Shown piece after piece: positions 24,818-46,403 of a DNA stretch of 64,000 bases. Position 1 is the stretch's first letter. Each line of letters starts with the position of its first letter. A model generated the notes under the pieces. It was not told where the DNA came from, made no database searches, and worked only from the letters and a program-made list of their open reading frames with translations. This stretch comes from Hyaloscypha bicolor E (Eukaryota; Ascomycota; Leotiomycetes; Helotiales; Hyaloscyphaceae). The DNA is taken from positions 126,573 through 190,572 of the forward strand of contig NW_020194519.1 of NCBI RefSeq assembly GCF_002865645.1, given 5' to 3'. The translations under genes were made by a program, and so were the position numbers.

Positions 24818-26581
24818 ATGTCTGTCAGCGTTTTGGGCGCAGCTCAGTACGTTCTGCTTCCGCCTCAAGCCCCAACCTGGAGACTAACGCCTCCACAGAC
24901 AAGACTCCATAGTCACTACCCAAGATGTAGCCACTCTCGCAACGAAATCCGGGATCACAATCCCGCCCTCCGAACTCAAAGACTGGTCCGCCCTACTCTC
25001 CGGCCTCAACCACTGCGCGAAAGAAATCCTCACTCTGGAAGACTACGGGCCAACAGTCGACCTCTCCGTCTATCCACGAACAAACATCCACCGACCTGTC
25101 GGACCTACAGATACAGATCACGGCGGATGGGCATGGAAGTGCGATGTGCGGAGCACGAACCCGAAGAGTGATGAGCTGGCTGGACGAACAATTGCGATCA
25201 AGGACAATATTGCCGTCGCGGGCGTGAAGTGTACGAATGGGACGGGAGGCAAGGTTGGAGAATGGGTGCCGAAGGTGGATGCTACACTTGTCACGAGGTT
25301 GTTAGATGCTGGTGGGATTATCAAGGGAAAGGCTGCTTGTGAGAATAACTGCTTTGGTGCTGTGAGGTATGATACCCACCCAAATACCGTCTCTCAGTTT
25401 GCCGGAGCGTTTGCTAAACGTCTGTTCTCCTCAGCGACACCTCAGTGACAGGCCCCGTTCACAACTCCTACGCACACGCCTACTCAACAGGTGGCTCCTC
25501 CTCTGGCTCGGCCCGCCTCCTTGCCTCTGGTGCTGTAGACCTCGCAATCGGCGCAGACCAAGGCGGCTCGATCCGACTCCCGTCCGCGAACTGTGGTGTT
25601 GTTGGCTTGAAACCAACATGGGGACTCGTCCCCTATACCGGCTGCATATCCCTCGAAGCTACAATCGACCATGCAGGCCCCATGGCAAGAGCTGTTCAAG
25701 ACTGCGCTACACTGCTCGAGGTAATAGCTGGTAGTGACGGGATCGACGATCGTCAGCCTTTGAATTGGCCACATGGGAAAATCAAGTTCGGACAAGAAGT
25801 GCGGAAACATGTTGAAGGCGGAGGAGACCTGCCCTTGAAAGGGACGAAAGTTGGGATCCTAAAGGAAGGTTTCGAAGACCCGATGACCGACCCCAATGTC
25901 GCAGCCGCCTCACGAGCCGCAATCGCCAAGCTGGCCGAACTCGGTGCGGAGGTGAAGGAGATCTCGATCCCGCTGCACAGAGACAGCGGCATGATCTGGA
26001 TGGTCGCCCTGCCCATGGCGGGCACAACCCAAGGTCTGCTCTCCAATCCAGCGGGAAGAAAACAACTCCTGTACCCTGACCGCTGTGAGCTCGTTGGCTC
26101 GCAGCTATCGCAAGAAGCGTTCGATGCCCTTGGGCCCGGCGGGCAGAACATTTACTTGCGTGGTCTATTCTTGCAGGAGAAGTTCGGCAGCCCGTTACAC
26201 GCGCGCTGTACCAATCTCCTTCGCAAGCTGAACGATGAATACGAGGCTGCGTTCAAAGAGGTCGATGCCCTGGTAATGCCGACGATCGTATTCCCGCCTG
26301 TCAAGATTGAAGAGGGTGGTGGCAAAGGTCTGGGACCGCTGAAGATGCTAAGCAGGACGATTGGCGCGACGTATAATACCGCTACGTTTAATAGTACGGG
26401 ACACCCTGGGCTGAGTCTCCCGGTGGGGTTCGTGCCGGCGAGGGATGATGGGAACGTGTGGTTGCCGACTGGGCTCCAGATTGTGGGGAGGAAGTGGGAG
26501 GATTTGACATGTCTTAAGGTGGCAGGAAGTTGGGAGAGGAGGAATGATTGGAAGGGGTTGAGGTATGGCAAGGGTGCTTAG
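24818..26581 (+). CDS. Amidase-signature family hydrolase, 547 aa
   Basis: Three exons, 24818-24846, 24899-25366 and 25435-26581, join in frame; the introns are 52 and 68 nt with GT-AG ends. The family hydrolyses amide bonds with a Ser-cisSer-Lys triad, and the parts are visible: Lys111 in IAIKDNIAV, the Ser/Gly loop GGSSSGSA at 185-192 (cis-Ser), and nucleophile Ser211 in GADQGGSIRLPSA followed by GVVGLKPTWG. Length (about 550 residues) is normal for fungal amidases. No signal peptide is present, so it is probably cytosolic. The natural substrate cannot be told. It is convergent with the minus-strand fusion gene that follows, about 395 bp between stop codons. Confidence 0.92.
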
Positions 26582-26975: not shown

Positions 26976-29900
26976 TCAAACGGTCTTCTTCCCCTCCTTC
27001 TTTCCCCCAGACATCTCCAAGTTCTTCCAATCCCTCCAATCATTCTTCCAATCCGGCTCCTTCCACCTCCACCCCTCGCCCCTACACACGCGATCCACCT
27101 CACTCCTCACCATCGGGAACACGTCTTTATAACTCTCCCTCCCCATCCAGCAATCCAGATGTCCGTAGCCGCGCACGACCTCCCTGCTATAGCCCTCGGT
27201 CCCGAACGCATCCCTGAGGATCCCGTACGTCTTCTCCGTCGCTTCGGGGGTGAGGACCTTGTTGTCGGAGCCCGAGAAGAGGAAGATGGGGATGCCCTTT
27301 AGGCGGCGGAGGTTGGAGGGGCCGGTGAGGGGCGTGAATAGGGGGCCGTTGCAAGTTACGGTGCCGCGGTAGCCTTGCTGCATCAGCGTGTGCAGGAGCG
27401 TCATGTTGACGCCGCCGAAGAAGCGGTTTATCTGTCTGTGGGTTGCCTGGTTTAGGTTTCTGTGGTTCCAGAGTCTGTTCCCGTTAGCACCGCCATCCCC
27501 TCGTGGAGGGGGAGGGGGGTTAGAACTTACCGCCCGAAAACCAGAGAGCAGCGATGACAGGATACGTTGTTGCAGATTTCTTCCCTAGAGTCAGGATAAA
27601 AGCGCAGGATCTGATTGACCAGTTGTTGGAAGTACGAATCATCTCGTGTTGAGGAGCAGGAGAACCACGAGCCGCCGAACATGGCGTAGAGTTTGTCGAA
27701 TGGGATGGGGCCTGCGAGGACTTTGGCCATGTTTAATGTTGACCAGATGGGATGGCAGAAGACTTGCGAGCAGGAGATTCCTTTCACCCACTCCGCTGGA
27801 ATGGTTCCATCGAGAAGACCGCAAGAATAGGCGACCGAGCCCATGCAGTGAGCGATCGTGTAGACGGGGTCCGGACCATGCTCTTGGCGGATCCATTCAT
27901 AGCATGCTTTTATGTCGAGACGAGCATCGTACGTCGTCCAGTTGTTTTCAGCAACCATGAGCTGGCAGATCCGATGCACGGTAACGAAAACCCTATACCC
28001 GGCCCTGGTAAAGTAATTGATAGCGTTAACCTCGATCGTCGGCAGCGCAAAGATCTGCTGGTCCACACTTGCACCAGGAATCATAAATAAATTCTTCGTT
28101 TCAATGCCCGGAGCACGGGGCTCCCAGACATGGAGAAGGGTCTGCACGCCGTCGATGGCGACGATCTTGATTGTTTGGTCCGGGGAGGTGTCATTTATGT
28201 AGCCCGAGTAGGTGACGGAGGGGTATTGCTGCCAGGTGAAGGGGGCGAGGAACAGGGCGGCGGAATGCCGGGCAAAGAAACTCATGAAGGACATTGTGGA
28301 GCTCACTTTTGCCCATAGATTCTTGCCAGACGGATTGAGAGTCAAGATCTCAGACAAAAAGTCAGAGGGACGGATGTGCAGCATGCCTCTTCCGAGGACC
28401 TTGCCCGTTCGCGTTTCTGAGATTGTGACGTAGAGGGTTGAGGCTGCGGTCCAGAAACGGATGGGGCCGAGGGCGACAGAGGAATTGACGACTTTGTATC
28501 CGTGGAAGTGGTAGTCGATCCCTTCGGTAGATGTCATATCGAAGTCATAGGTTAGGTTGCGGGTCCCTGGTGCTTGTTGGTCGATGCTGAAGAGGTGGAA
28601 GTCGCCGCGCTGCACCATGAATGGACTCCCTTTGAGGCCGGCGCAGGTGAAGGTTCCTGTTAGCATGGCTCGGTGGTCGGCGCGATTGACTATCGTATGT
28701 GTATCCCATGCTTTGACGCTCAAGAAGAATCGAGCTTCTTCGCACAGACCGCGAGCTGTCCTCGCTGCGGTTTGGTAATCTTCGATTTTGTCGCCTTCGA
28801 GACCTTTTCCAACGTGAATGTATCCCGACATGACTTCCGAGAATCCGAAACCATTGGCTTTGGCAGCCCTCGTGGCTTTGACCAAGTCTGTAGCGTCGTT
28901 GACCTTGTTGGAGTTCCTTCGTTGTATTGCTTTCTTGCCGCCAACGATTTGGTATGGTTCAGCGAAGAGATCCAAGACCTCGTTCTTCGTCTTCAGATCG
29001 ATCTCTTCAAGGATTCTGTATTTGGCAGCATACTCAACGGACCGTTCAGCAAGCGCCGTGATGGTTGCGAAGGGATTGACTCCAAGGGCTGTTGGGATGA
29101 CCGCTCCGTCCGTGACAATCAGGCCATGGTGTGTTTCTTCACCGCGACCAGTGAAGACTTCTCCATAATGATTCGTGACACCGTGCTCTCCCGTTCCGTC
29201 TCTACTCATGCAGGCACCTCCAATTGGATGAACAGTAATTTCTTGCTGGCCCAATGCTGCATAGAAAGGACTGTTGACAAAAGTACCACCAACGGCTTGA
29301 GTGGCGCGCTTCAACACATCATTGAGATACTCGACGTGCCCACTCCGTCCAACGCCAAGGAACTCCAGAACAATCTTGTCATCCTTGAGAGTTAAGCTTG
29401 CTTGATTGGAGTCATGGCTCATGATGAGATAGGTCTGAGTCCTCTCAATACTGCCTTTGGAGAAATACGGTCCAAGAAAACGGCTACCTTGCTGAGCTAA
29501 CACATGCTTGACCTTTTCAACCAAGCCCTCACCCTGTGGAACCTGATTGCCCGGCATCATTTCCAACATTGTTTGGAACAACGGGGCGAGTGCTTTAGGA
29601 ACGGCACCTTCCTCAATGACGAACCCATCAAGAGGATTATCTTGATCGCGACAATCTATCACGCCCGTGATCGTTGGCCCAACCGGCTTGTATGGAGAAG
29701 GGTATTGGCGTCCAATGGCATTGACTTCGGTGTCAGTGTTGTACCCAAAAGCCAAGATATCGCCGTTTCCACTCATGTGAAGACCAACTTTGTCGCTCAT
29801 TGTAAGACCAAGTTTCTTGCTTCGCAGCAGGATCTCAGTCGTGCCGATACTTCCAGCTCCAAGGAAGACGCATTCCCTTGCATGAACCCACATCAGGTCT

Positions 29901-32436
29901 TCGTAGAGGTTGTCTCTGAAAGCACTGCGCTCGCTCCCATGCCACGCGAAGAAGACCAGGTAGCCTTCGACCTTCGGATCGGGATGCTTCTTGATATATC
30001 TCACTTCGCACTGGCAGAACATTTCTGCTCCCCAGTTCCAAGCATCAGCAAGATAGTTGACAAGTGTGCTAGACTTGCTTCCATCGTTGACTCCCGTGCT
30101 GTCCATGCCAGTCAGAGCAGACGGATACATCTCAACTCCAGTACTGTTTGGCCCACCCTTGAATCGAGTCGTCTGAGGCACACGCTTGAATTTCTCTTTC
30201 CACCCAAGAGCTGCAGCTTGCCTCTCGAGCATGGCCAACTTTGGTAGTTCCGGCCAGTCCTTGGGATACTCTTCAGGCTCGAGGACATTAGATGCGCGCT
30301 TGTAATAATCCTCCAGCTCTTTCACTCCGTTTTCGCGGATCTCTTTCGGCCAACACGGCAGCCTCATCGTCCCATCATCTGCTTCGAGGAAGACATTCGC
30401 GTTCAGCAAGCTGGTTCCACCGAGTCCGTTGCCGACGAATGCATTCTGTCCCCTGCCACAGATGAGATGATAGAGACCAGTTGGGTCACCAGCTTCCACC
30501 ATTGCGCCTGTGAGGAATCCAGGAGCAAAGTCGCCTGAGACGTGGAGCTGCTTCACAGCGTCCACGAACCCACTTGGGTATTCTCCAGGCCACCTCTCTT
30601 TGCCTCTCTCAAGTAGACAAACAGATTGGCCAGCTCTAGCCATGCGGCTGGCTGCAACACTACCACCATATCCAGACCCGATCACGACACAGTCGTACTC
30701 GTTCCTGAGCAATTCAACAGGTTTCGAGATTCGAGGGAATTCTTTAGTGCTTGGATCATCAGTGTAAGATCTGATCTTAGCGTGAGCTTTCGATTGTGGG
30801 CCGTCGGCTTCAGTGGTGTGGGGACCGAAAGCTGGTATTTCATGGGACTGGTCCACAGGCACGGTACGGGCGTGCCGGAGTCCAGTCGTAAATGTATATT
30901 CATCGATACTGCCATCGACTCGGAAGTGGGAAGAGTTGCCCTTGTTTAGCGGTAGTCTTGATTCCTTGGTGCCATTGAGGTTGATAACCTGAGCTTGATT
31001 CCTGAAGCGAACTTCTGAAGCCGTGGAAGTTCCACTGGTGCCATTGGTAAGGTTGTGTGGTTGAGGTGTGACGGCACGTACGCCATCTGTAATCTGGTTT
31101 GGATGATCCCAGAGATGGTGGTCAGGTGCCGGACTTGGGAGATCCTTCGGTATGGAATTTGGCACGAGGTTCAGAACTTCATTGAATGAAGTGATCGGCC
31201 CAAGACAAATGATTGCAGGATCCTTTGGCATGTAGAGTGACATGCAGATTGGAACTGACACGATTAGGAGGGATGAATAGCTGTGGAATCCGGCTTCAAT
31301 CTTGACTTCTGCCACCGATTCTGGAATACAGCTGAGCCATCTCAGAAAGAGGTCTGAAGAGAGATCTCCAACCTTGAAATCCTCTTTTAGACGAATTGCA
31401 AATGCAATACGCGGTGTATCTCCTCGAGTAGACGAGGTATGGAACGCTCCGTTGGCATTTGCGGGGTTCGGGTGTAATGTAGAAGGGGTATCCGCCTGAT
31501 GAGCTGACAGTTGGATACTCCGAGGTAGGTACGGATCCTCCTGTGTCAATTGCAAACAAGCAGGTACAGCCTCTTCTTGTCCTGTTTCGGCCATTCGACT
31601 TTGAACGCGGCAGTAGATGTTGTGGAAAAGGTTTCCAACCGAGAAATACGGCAATTTGCTCAACTCTCGGAACTCGGTCTCCAGCTCACGGGTGAAGGAA
31701 TATGCTTCGAGGTGGCTCACCACAGATCTATAGGCAGATGCCGCAATGAGCTCTGTTACCCCATTACCTTGGTTGTTGTTTGCCGTCCCTACGTAAGGAC
31801 AGTCCAAGAGGATGAGAACGTCACTTCGTGCAGCCTCCAAAGACTTTTGAATGCCACTCCAATGGACGGGGTATCCGGATTTCTCGGTCTTGCGACCACT
31901 GCTATACATTAGCTCCGGCACAAAAATTGAGAGAAGGTAGATGCAAAAGGATCAACGAACCTCGTCAAAGCCAAGTTCTTGTTCTTGATAAGTTGAGTCT
32001 GTCCAGCATAAAATACAATCTTCAGATCATCGTCACTATCACCACCTAATCTGACGAAATCCAATATCTTCTGAGTCGTCGTAGCCTGGCTGCCTTCTGA
32101 AGGGATCATCCAAGATTCGACATCAAAATGATAAACGTCCTTGAAGACACTAGACAATCTCGAGATTCCAGACACCGCTGAACCTTCCACGCCCCAGCTC
32201 AGCATCAGCACATAAACCTTCGAGTATTGTAGTCGACCATCACTCGGGAATATCGCCTTTGCCGCAGCATTCAGGCCTTCGCCGAACTTTTGCAAGCCTA
32301 TCTGCGCTTGCCATCTCTCGAATTCTTCCAGACTCGGTGGTGTAGTATTTCGGCTTGGGTATTCCTGCTCGGATTCACTCGCAATGCCTTCGCCTTCATC
32401 GGCGGTGGCTACCTCGGTTTCATGAGCATCTGTCAT
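26976..32436 (-). CDS. Caspase-like / GMC oxidoreductase / alpha-beta hydrolase fusion, 1781 aa
   Basis: The minus-strand exons 32436-31961, 31901-27531 and 27474-26976 join in frame (5346 nt); the introns are 59 and 56 nt. Residues about 70-400 resemble the fungal caspase-like (C14-type fold) proteins: KIVFYAGQ, VLILLDCPYVG, GVTELIAAS and RIAFAIRLKEDFKVGDLSSD. The usual His is Gln in YAGQ (143-146), and the D-x-C site is DCP (192-194), so it looks inactive. Residues about 560-1150 are a GMC flavoenzyme: FAD motif VVIGSGYGG (567-572 is GSGYGG), catalytic-His word VHPIGGACMS (about 1050), and NPFATIT. This resembles the cholesterol-oxidase-like branch. Residues about 1390-1781 form an alpha/beta hydrolase with nucleophile elbow AHCMGS, i.e. 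Cys1511 in place of Ser, and a late GYGHLDCW. One 4.4-kb exon spans all three parts, so the fusion is in the DNA, not an artefact of gene joining. The substrate is unknown. Confidence 0.85.
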
Positions 32437-39395: not shown

Positions 39396-39924
39396 CTAAA
39401 GAGGGATGAGTTCTAAGACTGTAGAAGTTGCTTGTAGTGAGGAAGATAGGAGGCTACATTGGCCTGACGTGAGGCGCCTTGCAGGCCAGGTAGGTTCGGC
39501 TTGCGAACCACAGCTGCACTTTAGATCATCAAAGATCATCAAGCTGCAACCACACATCGTAAGTTTCGAAGATAGCTAACAACTTAAGAGTTTATCTTCT
39601 CGCCATTCCCTTACAAGCAGCATTCTAACATGAAAACCTCTTTTGGACCGAAATCACGTGATGCGTATGCTGATGCCTGAACCCCAGGTGGATTCTCGCG
39701 CCTCATTCCTGCACGCTGGATGCCTGTTCATCTAGGCGGCAGCATGTGCCGCCAATACCGAAAATTTTTGGCATACCTCTCTTCTACCTCACGATCTCGT
39801 GTCCCACTCTCTCAAACCTCTTGCAGACTTCGAATGTGTGCTTAGCAACTACACCAGCTACGCCGACCTTCACGCTCTCCTATATTCCTGACCATTCAAC
39901 ATCCACGGTTCTCAGCATCAAGCC
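39396..39924. other. Intergenic region and probable NLR-like gene promoter
   Basis: No gene seen. A direct repeat of AGATCATCAA lies near 39525-39540. The stretch just before 39925 is C/T-rich, as is usual for fungal leaders. Confidence 0.4.
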
Positions 39925-42900
39925 ATGCCTTCCTCTGAGTCCGACGAGTTTGAAATAATCAACGAGCTCGAAGCCAGCCTCTCGCCAGAAGAGCTTGCGA
40001 AAGTCCAAGAATGGCTTCAATCTACGGACTACGAAGCCCAGTCGAGCGAATTCCATCGCCACCTATCCTCTCAAGCTCCTGGGACTGGTCTTTGGATCTG
40101 CGAGACCTCAAAGTACCAACAGTGGCAGGAGTCGAGTGAGCATGGAAGCTTGTGGATCAAAGGAGTTCCTGGTGCTGGGAAGTCAGTGACTGCAGCCTCG
40201 ATGATCCAGCATCTGCAGAAGACCGAAGGTGTTCCGGTGTTGTATTTCTTCTTTCGCTATATCCTATCAGCCAACAGACGTCCCCGAAGTTTGGTTCGAG
40301 ATTTCCTGGCACAACTACTTCCCTTCAGTATTCGTCTCCAAGCAACCCTGCAACCACTGATTGGTAACCCGCTGGACGACTTTTCCGATGAGATATTGTG
40401 GGAGTATCTATTGACAGGACTATCTTCCGTTGACAAGGCCTACTGTATCCTCGATGCACTGGATGAGATGGAGTTACTTCCCAAAGATAGCTTTCTCGTT
40501 CGACTCAATAACCTAGCCACCTTTCGGCCAAAGGCTGTGAAGCTTTTGATGACGAGCAGACCAAAGCAGTACCTGCAAAGCAGCTTGAGAGACACCTCGA
40601 TTGTTCATATCAGCCTTGAAGATGATCTGGTGGGGCAGGATATTGCCCTATTCTTGTCATATCGCATCAACGGACTGCTTCCAGGGGATGACAAACAAGA
40701 ATTGCGAAAGTCTCTCGTTTCTGCTATTTCGGAACGATCTAACGGTCTTTTCCTTTATGCACGACTTCTGCTTGATCAGATCATTCCTAATCTGGGATCA
40801 AAGCAACTAGATGTCGAGAAATTGGTAGAGAGCCTCCCCGTCGATTTGGAGGAGATGTATAACAGCATGCTCTTTCAGCAGGCTGCCTCTCTCAGAATCG
40901 ACATTCAGATCCAGGTCTTCCTTCTCGAACTAGCCACGCACTCATCCCGGGCCCTGCGACTGAATGAGATGGCAAGTGTACTTGCTTCTGCTTTTCCAGC
41001 TTCAATGATGCCAGACGCCCCAAAGGCCATCGCCAGATCCGCATGTGCACCGCTTCTCGAAATCCTGGAAGATGAAACTGTTTCGGTCATCCACCACTCA
41101 TTCACAGAATTCCTGTTGAACCACGATCGAATCAAAAATAGATTTCACAACAACACTCCACGATTTCCCGTACTCAACCCAGACCAAGCCCACAAAAAGC
41201 TGTCAGTCATCTGCATAGACTACCTTGGAGCTGGTGGTCTCAGAGTACATGCCGATGATGGAGTCTCACAATCCAGTACAGCGGTAGACTCTCCCAAGTA
41301 TCGCGACCCCTTTGGTGACGAAGGTCAGGAGACTGATGGGTATAATTACCAAGAGTCAAAGCTACGATATCCCTTTCTAGAATACGCAGTTGGTAACTGG
41401 GCTTTCCACGCTAGCAAATACGACTTCGAAGACGACAAATTTTACACATCGATGGCAAACTTCCTGGATCCTGACAGCTTGGATTTCAAGAAATGGCTGA
41501 AGCTCGAATGGATGAAAGGAGTGGAGTCTTCAAAAATTGAAGCTCCGACTCCGCTGCATGTAGCCGCGTTCGCTGGTCTAACGATGTATGCCAAAAAGCT
41601 GCTCGAAGAAAAGGTGCCGGTTGATGCTCGCGATGCCGAAGATCGCACGCCTTTACACTGGGCCTGCGCACGAGGCCATACCTCAATGGCATCACTTCTG
41701 CTCAAGAATGGTGCAAGCGCTGATCCAGAAGATATTCGAGGTGTAAAACCAATCCACGAGGCAGCGAGGAGGAACCATGCCGCAATTGTGACTGTGTTGC
41801 TTGAGGCTGGTGTCCATCCACTCACTCCAAAGACAAAGGAGAACATCAAACGACACTTGAATTGCGGAGATGTCTCAACCAAAGGAGAAACCGCTGTGGA
41901 ATATGCATGGCTTCAGGGGCATACGGATACGATAGCCGCTATGCTGCCATTTCTCACACCTGAAACCTTGGAGGAATTGTTCTGCCAGTGCTGCCGTTAT
42001 GGAAAGTTTGAGGCGGTACGAGCTATTCTCAAGGCCACTGACGTGTCACCCAACTCAAAATACAGTGGCGCCACGGCGCTGTATCTTGCATGCCGGGCTC
42101 AGAGTGTCGGGATTGTGGAGCTCCTTCTAGCCAAAGGAGCCGATGTGCATCAGACTTCGGAATGGAAGATCACGAATAGAAACGCGTGTGGCGCACGAGT
42201 TAGTCAGGAGCCTTTGAGCCTGCCTATTCACGGTGTAGTGATGGGCTGGGGGAGAACAAACAACATTGCTTGTCAACAAATCTTACGTCTGCTGCTCAAT
42301 GCCGGGGCAGATATTGAAGCTAAAGATACCTATGGAGACACGACCATACATTTTCTATTTAAAGATCGCAACCGTCTCGGGGCCGATCTTGTTGTCGTCA
42401 GCGGCATTTTACAGGCTGGGGCAAATGTGTTGGCAGTCGACGAAGAAGGCGATTCGGTGCTTCATCGATGTCTTCAAAGGACAAAAGACGTCAAAATGCT
42501 AAAACTTCTCTTCGAATATGGTGCACGTGCAGATGTTCTTGGCAAGGGTGGAAACACTCTTCTGCATATAGCAATGAGAAGATATTCATCCACGGTAGAT
42601 GTTATCAATCTTCTTTTGGATATGGGGGCACGTTGTGACGTGAAGAATAACGCCGGCATCACGGCAATAGAATACGCCGCGGAAAGGCAGGGGTGCAACC
42701 TGGAAACATTCACATCATTCCTTCGGTCCTGTGCTGATGCAGAAACGATCAAACGCTGCACGTGGAAATTGTCCACGTGGATGGATAAACAAGATACACC
42801 CGGGTATATTCGCGTGCTCCAAAAGTTTGGTGTGTCGTTGGAAGATCGTGATAGCATTGGAGCGACTGTCTTGCTGAGAAGTGCGAAGTCTAAGGAGCTC

Positions 42901-45900
42901 TTTTCTGCTTTCATTGAATGTGGCGCGGATCTGAAGGTCGTTGACTCCAAAGGCAGAGGGGTTCTTCATTATTACACCTCCAGTAGTCCCTACGGTGAAC
43001 CTCATGAATGCCTTCAGAGACTGGAAGAAATGGTAGACATGGGCTTGGATCCAATGCAAGTAAGTGTTGCAAAGCCTCGGTTGCCCAAGGAGACCTCCAA
43101 GGCAATGCTAACTTGACTCTAGGTCGATTATGAAGGAAATAATTTGCTGCATCTGCGTGCAAAGATCTATAAAGGTGATGAGGTCGACGACTTGTTCATT
43201 CAGAAACTCCTCGACTACGGGATTTCGGTCAAGTCAAAGAACAATGAAGGCATGACTCCGCTTCATGTCCATCTTAACAATTGGGATGCCAGTATTTCGA
43301 CGAACGCTGTCCGAAAACGACTTGATGAGCGTTTCCATGAGCGCCATGAAATACCTTTACTAAATTTGTTTCGGAGGTAAACTTCACTCATTGCCCCAGA
43401 TCAGCCCTCAAATTTGAATAATGAATCTAATTTTGACGAAGGAACAAAAAATCCGTCGATATCAATGAAGCTGATTCGGATGGAGTCACTGTGTTCCATT
43501 TAGCTGCGTTACGTTCCGAAACCCGGATGTATTATTTGCTCGGGGAAGGTGCAGATCCAACCTTGTTGACCAAAAAGGGGCGAAACGGTCTTCATCTGGC
43601 TTGTCGAGCTCGTCAAAGCAACGTCATCGGATATCTTTGTCAAGTGAGTCGTCTTATCCGTACCCTATCATCTCCCCACAGATCCCCATCATACTCTCCA
43701 ACCTGAAATCATCCTCTCCATACTCACACTTTAAACACAGCAATCCCAGCTAACTATCTTTGATTATAGTCATACCCGATATTGCTTAACCAACAAGACG
43801 AATACGGGAGAACTCCTCTTCATGACGCTTGCACATCAGGCCAACCAGACTCAGTTCGGCTGCTTCTCAACGCCGGCGCAGATATCACCATCACCGACAG
43901 GAATAAGAGAACACCTCTTCACGCTTGCGCTGAATTTCCCAACGAGCAGAGGTTGTGGGAACTATTGATGCATCCAAATGACACATCTGGTCAGGTTCTT
44001 CATGATCGGTTCAGACCAGCAACCCAAACACCACTCGCCTGGGACGACTCGTACGCTTTGAGACCACAGGGTGGTGACGAGGCTATGAATAAGAAGTATC
44101 TTAGCATTGGCCTCGTTGTCAAACAACTCCTTTCGGCTGGGAGCGATGTCATGGCTGACGACTCTCATCTTCAAACCCCCTTGGACCTCGCTCTCCAGTT
44201 TGACTGTCAGGGGATGATCCAGGCCCTCGAATTTGCCGCTCCGCTTCTCAGTAAAAAACATTACCTGAAGCCCGAGGATCGAAGGCTTTCAACTCTTCTA
44301 GCTCTGAAGGGTTTAAATGTTTCACCTTTGTCAAAAATGGACCTCATAGATCCATTGCGTGATTATATCTTCCGGAACCTTTCGACATGTCTGCCCTTCC
44401 TTACGTTCGACGATATTGAGTGGATAGCAAAGAATCGTGGTAACATTATAGGATTTGACGAGGCGAAACCTATTCAGTCCTCAGAGCAATCCTTGTTGCA
44501 CATTACTGTCTCGAACGGTCTCACCCAGCTGGTTGAGAGTTTTGGTGCCCTGGCTTGTTTTAACGATGACCCCAAGATTGTCATGGAGCGGATTCATGAG
44601 CAATTATCTACAGATACAAAATACAGCCCAGAAGTCGAAAATTTAACACCGATACTCCATGTAGCTTGCGCCAGAGAGTTGCCAAACATGGAAATTGTCG
44701 AGGTGCTCGTTGCCAAATGTGGTGTTGATGTCAACGCGCGCACCTTGGCTAGACCCCAGAGATGGGCAAAGATAGCCGAGTGCGTCGAAGGAGGGACTGC
44801 TCTGCACGTTCTCGCAAAAGCACGGTACAACTGGCAACTCGAGGCAATCAATTACCTTCTCCAGGGGGGAGCAAAGATTGACGCAGTTGACGAGAAAGGG
44901 GAGACACCACTTCACATAGCCTGCACAGGAACAACCTTTGCAGCTATGAATTGCCAAGACGATGTGTACGGATACTGGAGAATTGAAGTGGTCAAAATAC
45001 TTCTCCAATCAGGAGCCGACGTCAATATCCTTGACAAGGACGGCCTTTCCTGTCTTCACAAAGCCAGCTCATCCCCTCAGATCATGAGAATCCTCCTGGA
45101 ACATGGTGCAGATCTAACTGCCGGGAAGCTCTCGCCAGTTTTCTCAGCAATCCAAATCCAATGCCTCGAAACGCTTACCATTCTGCTCGACGCTGGTGTG
45201 AGCCCCAACATTGTAGATCCCAATACCGACGGTGAGGGCTTCCAACTCCACTACAAAGCCAAAAACGTCGCACGTACTGCGCTTTTCTACGCGTCGTTTC
45301 CCAATCTGCACAACCAAAGAGACGAGCATTCATCTCCATTGGTGAAACTACTAATCGAGCGAGGAGCAGACATCTACGCTGCATTGAATGGGAAACAAAC
45401 TCTCTTACACTACGTCTCTGAAAACGCAGATTTCGAAATTGTTTCTGCATTCCTCGACTGCGCGTCTAAGGTCAACATTGACTTCAACACTCGAGACTCG
45501 CTTGGGCGGACAGTTCTCATAGCTGCGTGTGAATGGATGGAATGTCTCCCAGGTTACCAACACAAACTCCGGTCCCCAAAAGAAACAGCTCCCTTCCTCC
45601 GAACTCTTGATTTTGGTGCCGATCCACGGATAGTTGACAACGAAGGCCGAAATGCGCTGCACCACCTCCTCGATAACCCTGGAATGGAAGAAGACGCTAT
45701 CATTCAATTCCTCGCCCACGAGTCAGCCAACGAGTTACTGCATCGCAAAGATGGAGACGGCTTCACGCCTCTGAACTGTGCTCTACGTTTCCTTCGCCCA
45801 GCAGTGGTTGAGGTCATGATAACAATGGGTGTAAACTTACTGAGCGCCGATCCAACGGGTGCCACAGCTCTTCACCGTATAGCTGAGCAGTGTCTTCGTT

Positions 45901-46403
45901 ACCGATCTCCTTGCAGAAGAAACAACTTCGTTCGAGACCACCAGCCTGAGTACTATACCGGTGCACTCGCCCTGTGGAAGAAGTTCCTCTCTCTGGGAGG
46001 GTCCATCAACGTGCGGGACAACAAGGGAGCACCACCACTGTTCTATTTCCTGTCATCTGCGGAGCGCGACCAGTACGATGCGCCTGAAGACTGGTGCTGC
46101 CATCTACAGTACTTCACTACTTATTTCCATGAAGATGTGACCAAGGTTCTAGACTTTGGTGCGAAGAACATGAATGGAGAGAATGCTTTGCATGTTATTG
46201 CGAGGAGGGGGAAGGAGAAGGTCTATAGGAAGCACGGGCAGGATCATGATCATGTCCCAACGCATGATAAGGAGTTGTATCAGTTTTTTATGAGGAAGGG
46301 GTTGAATCCTTTGGAAGAGGATGGGAATGGAAGGAGTAGTCTGGATGTTGCAGCCGCTTGCGAGCAGAAGGGTATTCTGGAGTTGTTTCAGTATGGGAAA
46401 TAA
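39925..46403 (+). CDS. NACHT-ankyrin NLR-like protein, 2074 aa
   Basis: The exons 39925-43059, 43123-43376, 43442-43643 and 43770-46403 join exactly in frame; the introns are 63, 65 and 126 nt. The N-terminus has no recognisable effector domain and leads quickly to the NACHT ATPase: Walker A GVPGAGKS (80-87) preceded by SLWIKG, Walker B YCILDALDEM (Asp177, Asp180, Glu181), LLMTSRPK as sensor 1, and the HHSFTEFLL word that closes fungal NACHT modules. From about residue 530 to the end there are some twenty or more ankyrin repeats, with words such as TPLHWACARGHTSMASLLLK, TPLHDACTSGQPDSVRLLLN and NALHVIARRGK. This is the architecture of fungal STAND/NLR sensors, in which the repeats bind a trigger and NACHT oligomerises. 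No premature stops, so probably functional. Its 3' end lies only about 150 bp from the RIP-decayed block. Confidence 0.88.

Follow-up and report, generated by a model that had tools for sequence, protein, structure and literature searches.

A caspase-like head with a repeatedly lost catalytic dyad, joined to a GMC flavoenzyme and a putative alpha/beta hydrolase in Helotiales fungi

The c-FLIP-L protein contains an inactive caspase domain that acts through dimerisation, with no cutting, has human caspase-8 as its partner and carries no enzyme part. The protein is named in a paper on the bacterial pseudo-orthocaspases, in which the His-Cys dyad of a caspase-type p20 fold is replaced, mostly by Tyr-Ser, and which are presumed to be non-proteolytic (PMC6426788). 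In fungi, the passages available from reviews of cell death describe caspase-like CHAT modules, a family of their own with proteolytic action, within the NLRs that control gasdermins, and contain neither a Peptidase_C14-type head nor a GMC or hydrolase partner (PMC10197012, PMC12881547). Two further kinds of fungal protein come closer to the subject of this text, namely proteins with a C14-type head, in which the partner is HET, NPHP3_N/WD40, a methyltransferase or a zinc cluster, and those named 'cholesterol oxidase', which combine a GMC oxidoreductase with an alpha/beta hydrolase and are mostly 1270-1430 amino acids long (Colletotrichum, Botrytis, Xylaria). Here we describe a gene in 64,000 nucleotides of Hyaloscypha bicolor E (assembly GCF_002865645.1, contig NW_020194519.1, positions 126,573 to 190,572; hereafter the window), a genome of 82.0 Mb in 76 contigs, in which one open frame joins a caspase-like head, a GMC flavoenzyme and a putative hydrolase, as an earlier reading of the DNA letters (the original prediction) had noticed. 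Like the pseudo-orthocaspases, its head has lost the catalytic dyad; unlike them, it sits on a flavoenzyme-hydrolase, and the replacing residues in the fused heads are many.

The whole gene lies on the minus strand, as do all of its parts given below, at 32436-26976, and its three exons, separated by two short introns, encode 1781 amino acids. Exon 1 (31961..32436), which aligns with the beginning of P0002, P0003 and P0008, encodes an acidic N-terminus and the first part of the head, including the motif YAGQ. Exon 2 (27531..31901), stop-free over 4371 nt, encodes the rest of the head, a linker, the GMC domain, a middle region and the first part of the hydrolase, the end of which, with its acid and histidine motifs and the stop, lies in exon 3 (26976..27474). 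The nearest records, among the matches listed, are a metagenome protein, P0001 (98%), and, at 89-90% over the core, P0038 of Hyaloscypha variabilis. No signal peptide was seen in the protein by inspection by eye only.

The original prediction had treated a caspase-like head on such an enzyme as unusual. Its account of the frame, the fold, the lost dyad, the partners of related heads and the common enzyme core stands. The fusion is not unique to this genome: at least 11 named species share the same junction. There are 13 full-length fused proteins with head, linker and core (1759-1820 amino acids), 11 of them from named fungi, namely Phialocephala, Oculimacula, Cadophora gregata, Venustampulla, Rhynchosporium, Halenospora, Drepanopeziza, two Lachnellula, Hymenoscyphus and Diplocarpon; taxonomy was looked up for eight of these carriers, and all eight belong to Helotiales. 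The seam is placed at about residues 405-442, because the alignment of most head relatives ends at 399-417 and that of standalone GMC cores begins at 442 or later. It falls in a variable linker (residues 405-520, 30818..31165), whose stop-free frame of 116 codons would arise with a chance of about 0.008 from base composition, and which GC content at codon positions did not set apart.

Two adjacent genes, one for the head and one for the GMC-hydrolase, with an internal promoter and joined merely by the reading of an open frame, might look the same. The head models P0139 and P0140 stop at residue 395, and P0039-P0041 begin at 383. In Amylocarpus, P0140 and P0048 are each on a contig of the same length (26737) and bear the locus tags 388004 and 388006. 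Nevertheless, these split-looking models (P0039-P0041, P0139, P0140/P0048) are cut within regions that other models read through, and they look like annotation cuts since the first Met of P0048 lies in a part of the linker across which P0017 continues. Single models span the junction in 11 named species, long and apparently unspliced metagenome frames (P0001-P0003, P0005, P0012, P0018) cross it, and the two domains are just about 25-40 residues apart, and for these reasons two genes are judged very unlikely. The fusion is real and conserved, with a single open frame and a shared junction. P0138, labelled unfused in the head tree, spans head to GMC and so is properly one of the fused proteins. 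In Cudoniella acicularis, P0031 has 382 residues ahead of the head, then the head (dyad positions D/G), the linker and the start of the GMC domain only; this model of the fused gene is probably cut or broken.

Coverage was sufficient in 131 core sequences, of which 66 were used for the core tree, a quick tree with open forks. In it, one 44-row group (support 86) contains the 32 fused rows together with five models that are cut; outside this group are proteins of Botrytis, Coleophoma, Phlyctema and Bisporella, headless by their models, and the outgroup Sordariomycetes, to which Colletotrichum, Xylaria and the like belong. Seven rows inside the group have no head: P0048 (probably a cut model), P0060 (on a long branch), P0044, P0057, P0058, P0059 and P0063. 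A single clade of fused rows, a group defined after inspection of the tree, is not rejected by the approximately unbiased test (p 0.36), which is no proof of such a clade. The head tree, with 78 sequences, places the fused heads in a single clade (support 100), adjoining a group that includes the HET-joined P0142 (support 81). In view of the groupings in both trees, a single acquisition of the head would be the simplest account, with possible loss again in some lines.

As for the head itself, residues 38-300 (31478..32325, split by intron 1) correspond to a caspase alpha/beta fold, which was predicted for the head of an ortholog and thereby bears out what had been proposed for this head. A C-terminal alpha/beta module follows (residues 318-404, 31166..31426), which also occurs in unfused head relatives, so that both sub-modules are shared with the C14-type family; in several copies of that family the match breaks near residue 158, the site of intron 1 in the window. 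When 32 fused heads are aligned with 46 unfused ones, Q146 (31999..32001) occupies the column of the catalytic His (YAGH) and P194 (31796..31798) that of the catalytic Cys (D-x-C), so the dyad is lost, as had been suspected, and the head lacks the residues of an active C14 protease. The window's own head matched nothing in Pfam at E<=1, and a Peptidase_C14 search of its own genome did not return the gene, an absence that fits erosion of the head, the homology of which becomes visible only via relatives.

The same alignment underlies the dyad counts, with P0019, P0020, P0029 (not aligned), P0138 and P0183-P0185 (distant) left out. Where both positions can be read, the full dyad is kept in 18 of 20 unfused heads, one of the two exceptions (P0159) being possibly a misread gene model, and in two of 19 fused heads (P0004 and P0008), 14 having neither residue and three having one. 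Column by column, fused heads keep His in 4/19 against 19/20 in unfused heads, and Cys in 7/31 against 43/44, with Cys kept in P0015, P0021, P0025, P0026 and P0030 besides the intact pair. The substitutes are varied, being Q, N, D, S, A or K for His and P, G, A, N, T or R for Cys. When only losses are counted on the core tree, with P0048 and P0140 taken as one gene and P0048 assigned the dyad of P0140, His was lost six times and Cys seven times, or four and five times by parsimony with regain permitted. Since the dyad is intact in two of the 19 readable fused heads, the head was probably active when joined and disabled repeatedly afterwards.

The surviving dyads would also suit a head that is, or recently was, a self-cleaving protease releasing the enzyme on a signal, with dead versions left uncleaved or using an active paralog in trans. 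The variable linker between head and enzyme is in keeping with this, as are the intact P0004 and P0008, the kept Cys of the five further proteins and the paralogous heads of the genome (at least 20 loci, with dyads kept in nearly all 20 read). On the other hand, the window dyad is lost and most readable fused heads lack both residues, which makes such a protease quite improbable.

Losses in the fused heads are uneven. Among 82 columns conserved in at least 90% of unfused heads, the fused heads keep a median of 90%, and the five most often lost are 224, 274, 86, 146 (His) and 194 (Cys), followed by 87, 117, 214, 220-223, 33 and 45, each kept in less than 40%. Judging by their sequence positions, columns 86, 87, 117, 214 and 220-224 may line the active site. 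Across the window and 13 full-length relatives, mean pairwise identity is 0.50 for the caspase-like part, 0.65 for the second module and 0.40 for the linker, and 0.84, 0.77 and 0.79 for the GMC domain, the middle region and the hydrolase. These figures bear on whether the head could be a decaying passenger, joined by chance and without benefit, which persists as the promoter and start codon now lie ahead of it. Its fast evolution, the many different dyad residues, the headless related proteins and the loss of columns with no evident active-site link speak for a passenger, whereas half of the 82 columns are kept in at least 90% of fused heads despite the low overall identity, and the losses are uneven, with both dyad columns within the top five. 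A passenger is unlikely, though with an appreciable chance. The pattern is a better match for lost catalysis with a preserved fold than for even decay, but it is compatible with decay as well.

The enzyme part begins with a conserved N-terminal extension (SHxI..FGPH...KIRxYxDDP...FPRISKPVEL, 30698..30817), also found in standalone forms, and continues with a cholesterol-oxidase-like GMC oxidoreductase (residues 561-1140, 28958..30697). This domain exceeds the Pfam cut-offs for PF00732 (GMC_oxred_N, 28.6 against 23 bits) and PF05199 (GMC_oxred_C, 34.2 against 24.6 bits), has the GxGxxG motif for binding flavin adenine dinucleotide as GSGYGG at 567, and has cholesterol oxidases as its best solved relatives, so that its name rests on homology. 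HPIGG at 1050 and GVNPF at 1099 correspond to the active-site His and Asn motifs of cholesterol oxidase, matched by motif and not by superposition; HPxGG occurs in 133/133 core proteins and the NP motif in 121/133. The core is common in fungi, as the original prediction had stated, with 2658 matches, 120 of which are listed. Fungal 'cholesterol oxidases' align over 97-100% of the core length, the full-length ones among those listed being about 60-75% identical, share HPxGG and, mostly, the N-terminal extension and the Cys elbow described below, and differ in having no caspase-like head, as judged from public models.

The middle region (residues 1141-1390, 28208..28957) consists of strands and some helices in an AlphaFold2 model of moderate confidence, and the putative alpha/beta hydrolase follows (residues 1391-1781, 26976..28207, split by intron 2). 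The elbow AHCMG starts at 1509, with Cys replacing Ser at 1511 (27845-27847), and SGSDN (1683) and GYGHLD (1718) lie further on. The elbow pattern is found in 112/133 core proteins, all but one with Cys, the other 21 including fragments that end before the elbow and are not separated in the count; the acid pattern is found in just 32/133. Abhydrolase_1 scores below its cut-off on this protein (14.3 against 25.8 bits). The model, made without exon 3 (pTM, the predicted template modelling score, 0.42), agrees with an alpha/beta hydrolase after a strand-rich region, and its Foldseek matches, brefeldin A esterase and the dominating S9 peptidases at large root-mean-square deviation, give a hint of the same; this part may be an ester hydrolase, with Cys as its likely nucleophile. 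Besides its own exons, one 40-residue match (E 1e-5) was the only trace of the core in this genome, with no other close copy. An Amidase (PF01425) frame at 25418-26578 on the plus strand is oriented towards the fusion gene, the stops being about 0.4 kb apart.

The same genome has heads of this family at no fewer than 20 further loci (61 pieces match, those of the fusion gene among them), and in the 20 stretches fetched His is kept in 19 and D-x-C in all 20, the latter shifted by one column and read by eye in L053 and L055. That caspase-like relatives join NLR-type domains was correctly foreseen. L053 (1926-6632, plus strand) encodes an NLR-like protein in which a C14-type head is joined to NPHP3_N, a winged helix and WD40 repeats, and L046 (1465-3813, plus strand) a head with a methyltransferase domain in a single frame, with the dyad kept. 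Open frames with partial heads run on into HET (L043), a Zn2Cys6 cluster (L051) and a ubiquitin-like domain (L055), and several other head frames that were scanned showed no clear partner domain. The fusion protein has no NACHT/NB-ARC or HET domain in residues 1-551 or the exon 2 product, so the head is the sole part it has in common with NLR/HET proteins. The main text of a paper on fungal NLR effectors does not contain the word 'caspase'. The window also holds an NLR-type frame with NPHP3_N/NACHT and ankyrin repeats (39892-43113, plus strand), then an ankyrin-repeat frame (43770-46400, plus strand), a pair some 7.5 kb away from where the fusion gene starts.

We lean towards a two-enzyme protein with a once-active, repeatedly disabled caspase-like head that now serves as a pseudoprotease for docking or regulation, a reading that we consider fairly probable. 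An ancestral helotialean fungus would have joined a head with an intact protease fold, from a family otherwise met with HET or NLR-type partners, to a flavo-oxidase of cholesterol-oxidase type and an ester hydrolase. The active site would then have been disabled separately in several lineages with the head shape kept, and in the window fungus the head most likely acts as a pseudoprotease that dimerises or docks, positioning or regulating the enzyme part much as c-FLIP acts without catalysis. The enzyme part would free and oxidise a lipid-type alcohol; this substrate class, hydrogen peroxide production, an intracellular location and the docking or regulatory role are all inferred.

Several points weigh against this. 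The head evolves fast (mean identity 0.50, against 0.84 for the GMC domain), and six no-head proteins (P0044, P0057-59, P0063, P0060) stand within the 44-row group, so the head may be dispensable. Intact frames are weak evidence of constraint because protein databases list intact proteins, and the fold prediction comes from an ortholog that shares 53% identity with the window head. The dyad is lost less often than some other columns, 224 and 274 among them, and 33, 45 and 274, three of the most-lost columns, have no evident link to the active site. The original prediction also proposed a sensor-coupled enzyme, which is still a hypothesis. On a bolder reading, helotialean fungi would have wired the oxidase-hydrolase through its head into their HET/NLR-type cell-death network, the head then repeatedly becoming a non-catalytic receptor or gate through which signals from active caspase-like HET or NLR proteins control the production of an oxidised lipid or hydrogen peroxide; this we consider doubtful.

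What is new here is the arrangement of known parts and the repeated loss of the protease site, and none of the titles listed in searches of open-licence literature is on a caspase-GMC fusion. Three of the listed papers contain both the terms 'caspase' and 'GMC oxidoreductase'. Some public Helotiales 'cholesterol oxidase' records hide a caspase-like half. The fusion seems to have arisen once, after which the same catalytic site was lost independently several times, and some members are still intact. Such a natural series lets one ask what becomes of a caspase fold that has stopped cutting, and whether metabolic enzymes feed fungal self/non-self cell death.
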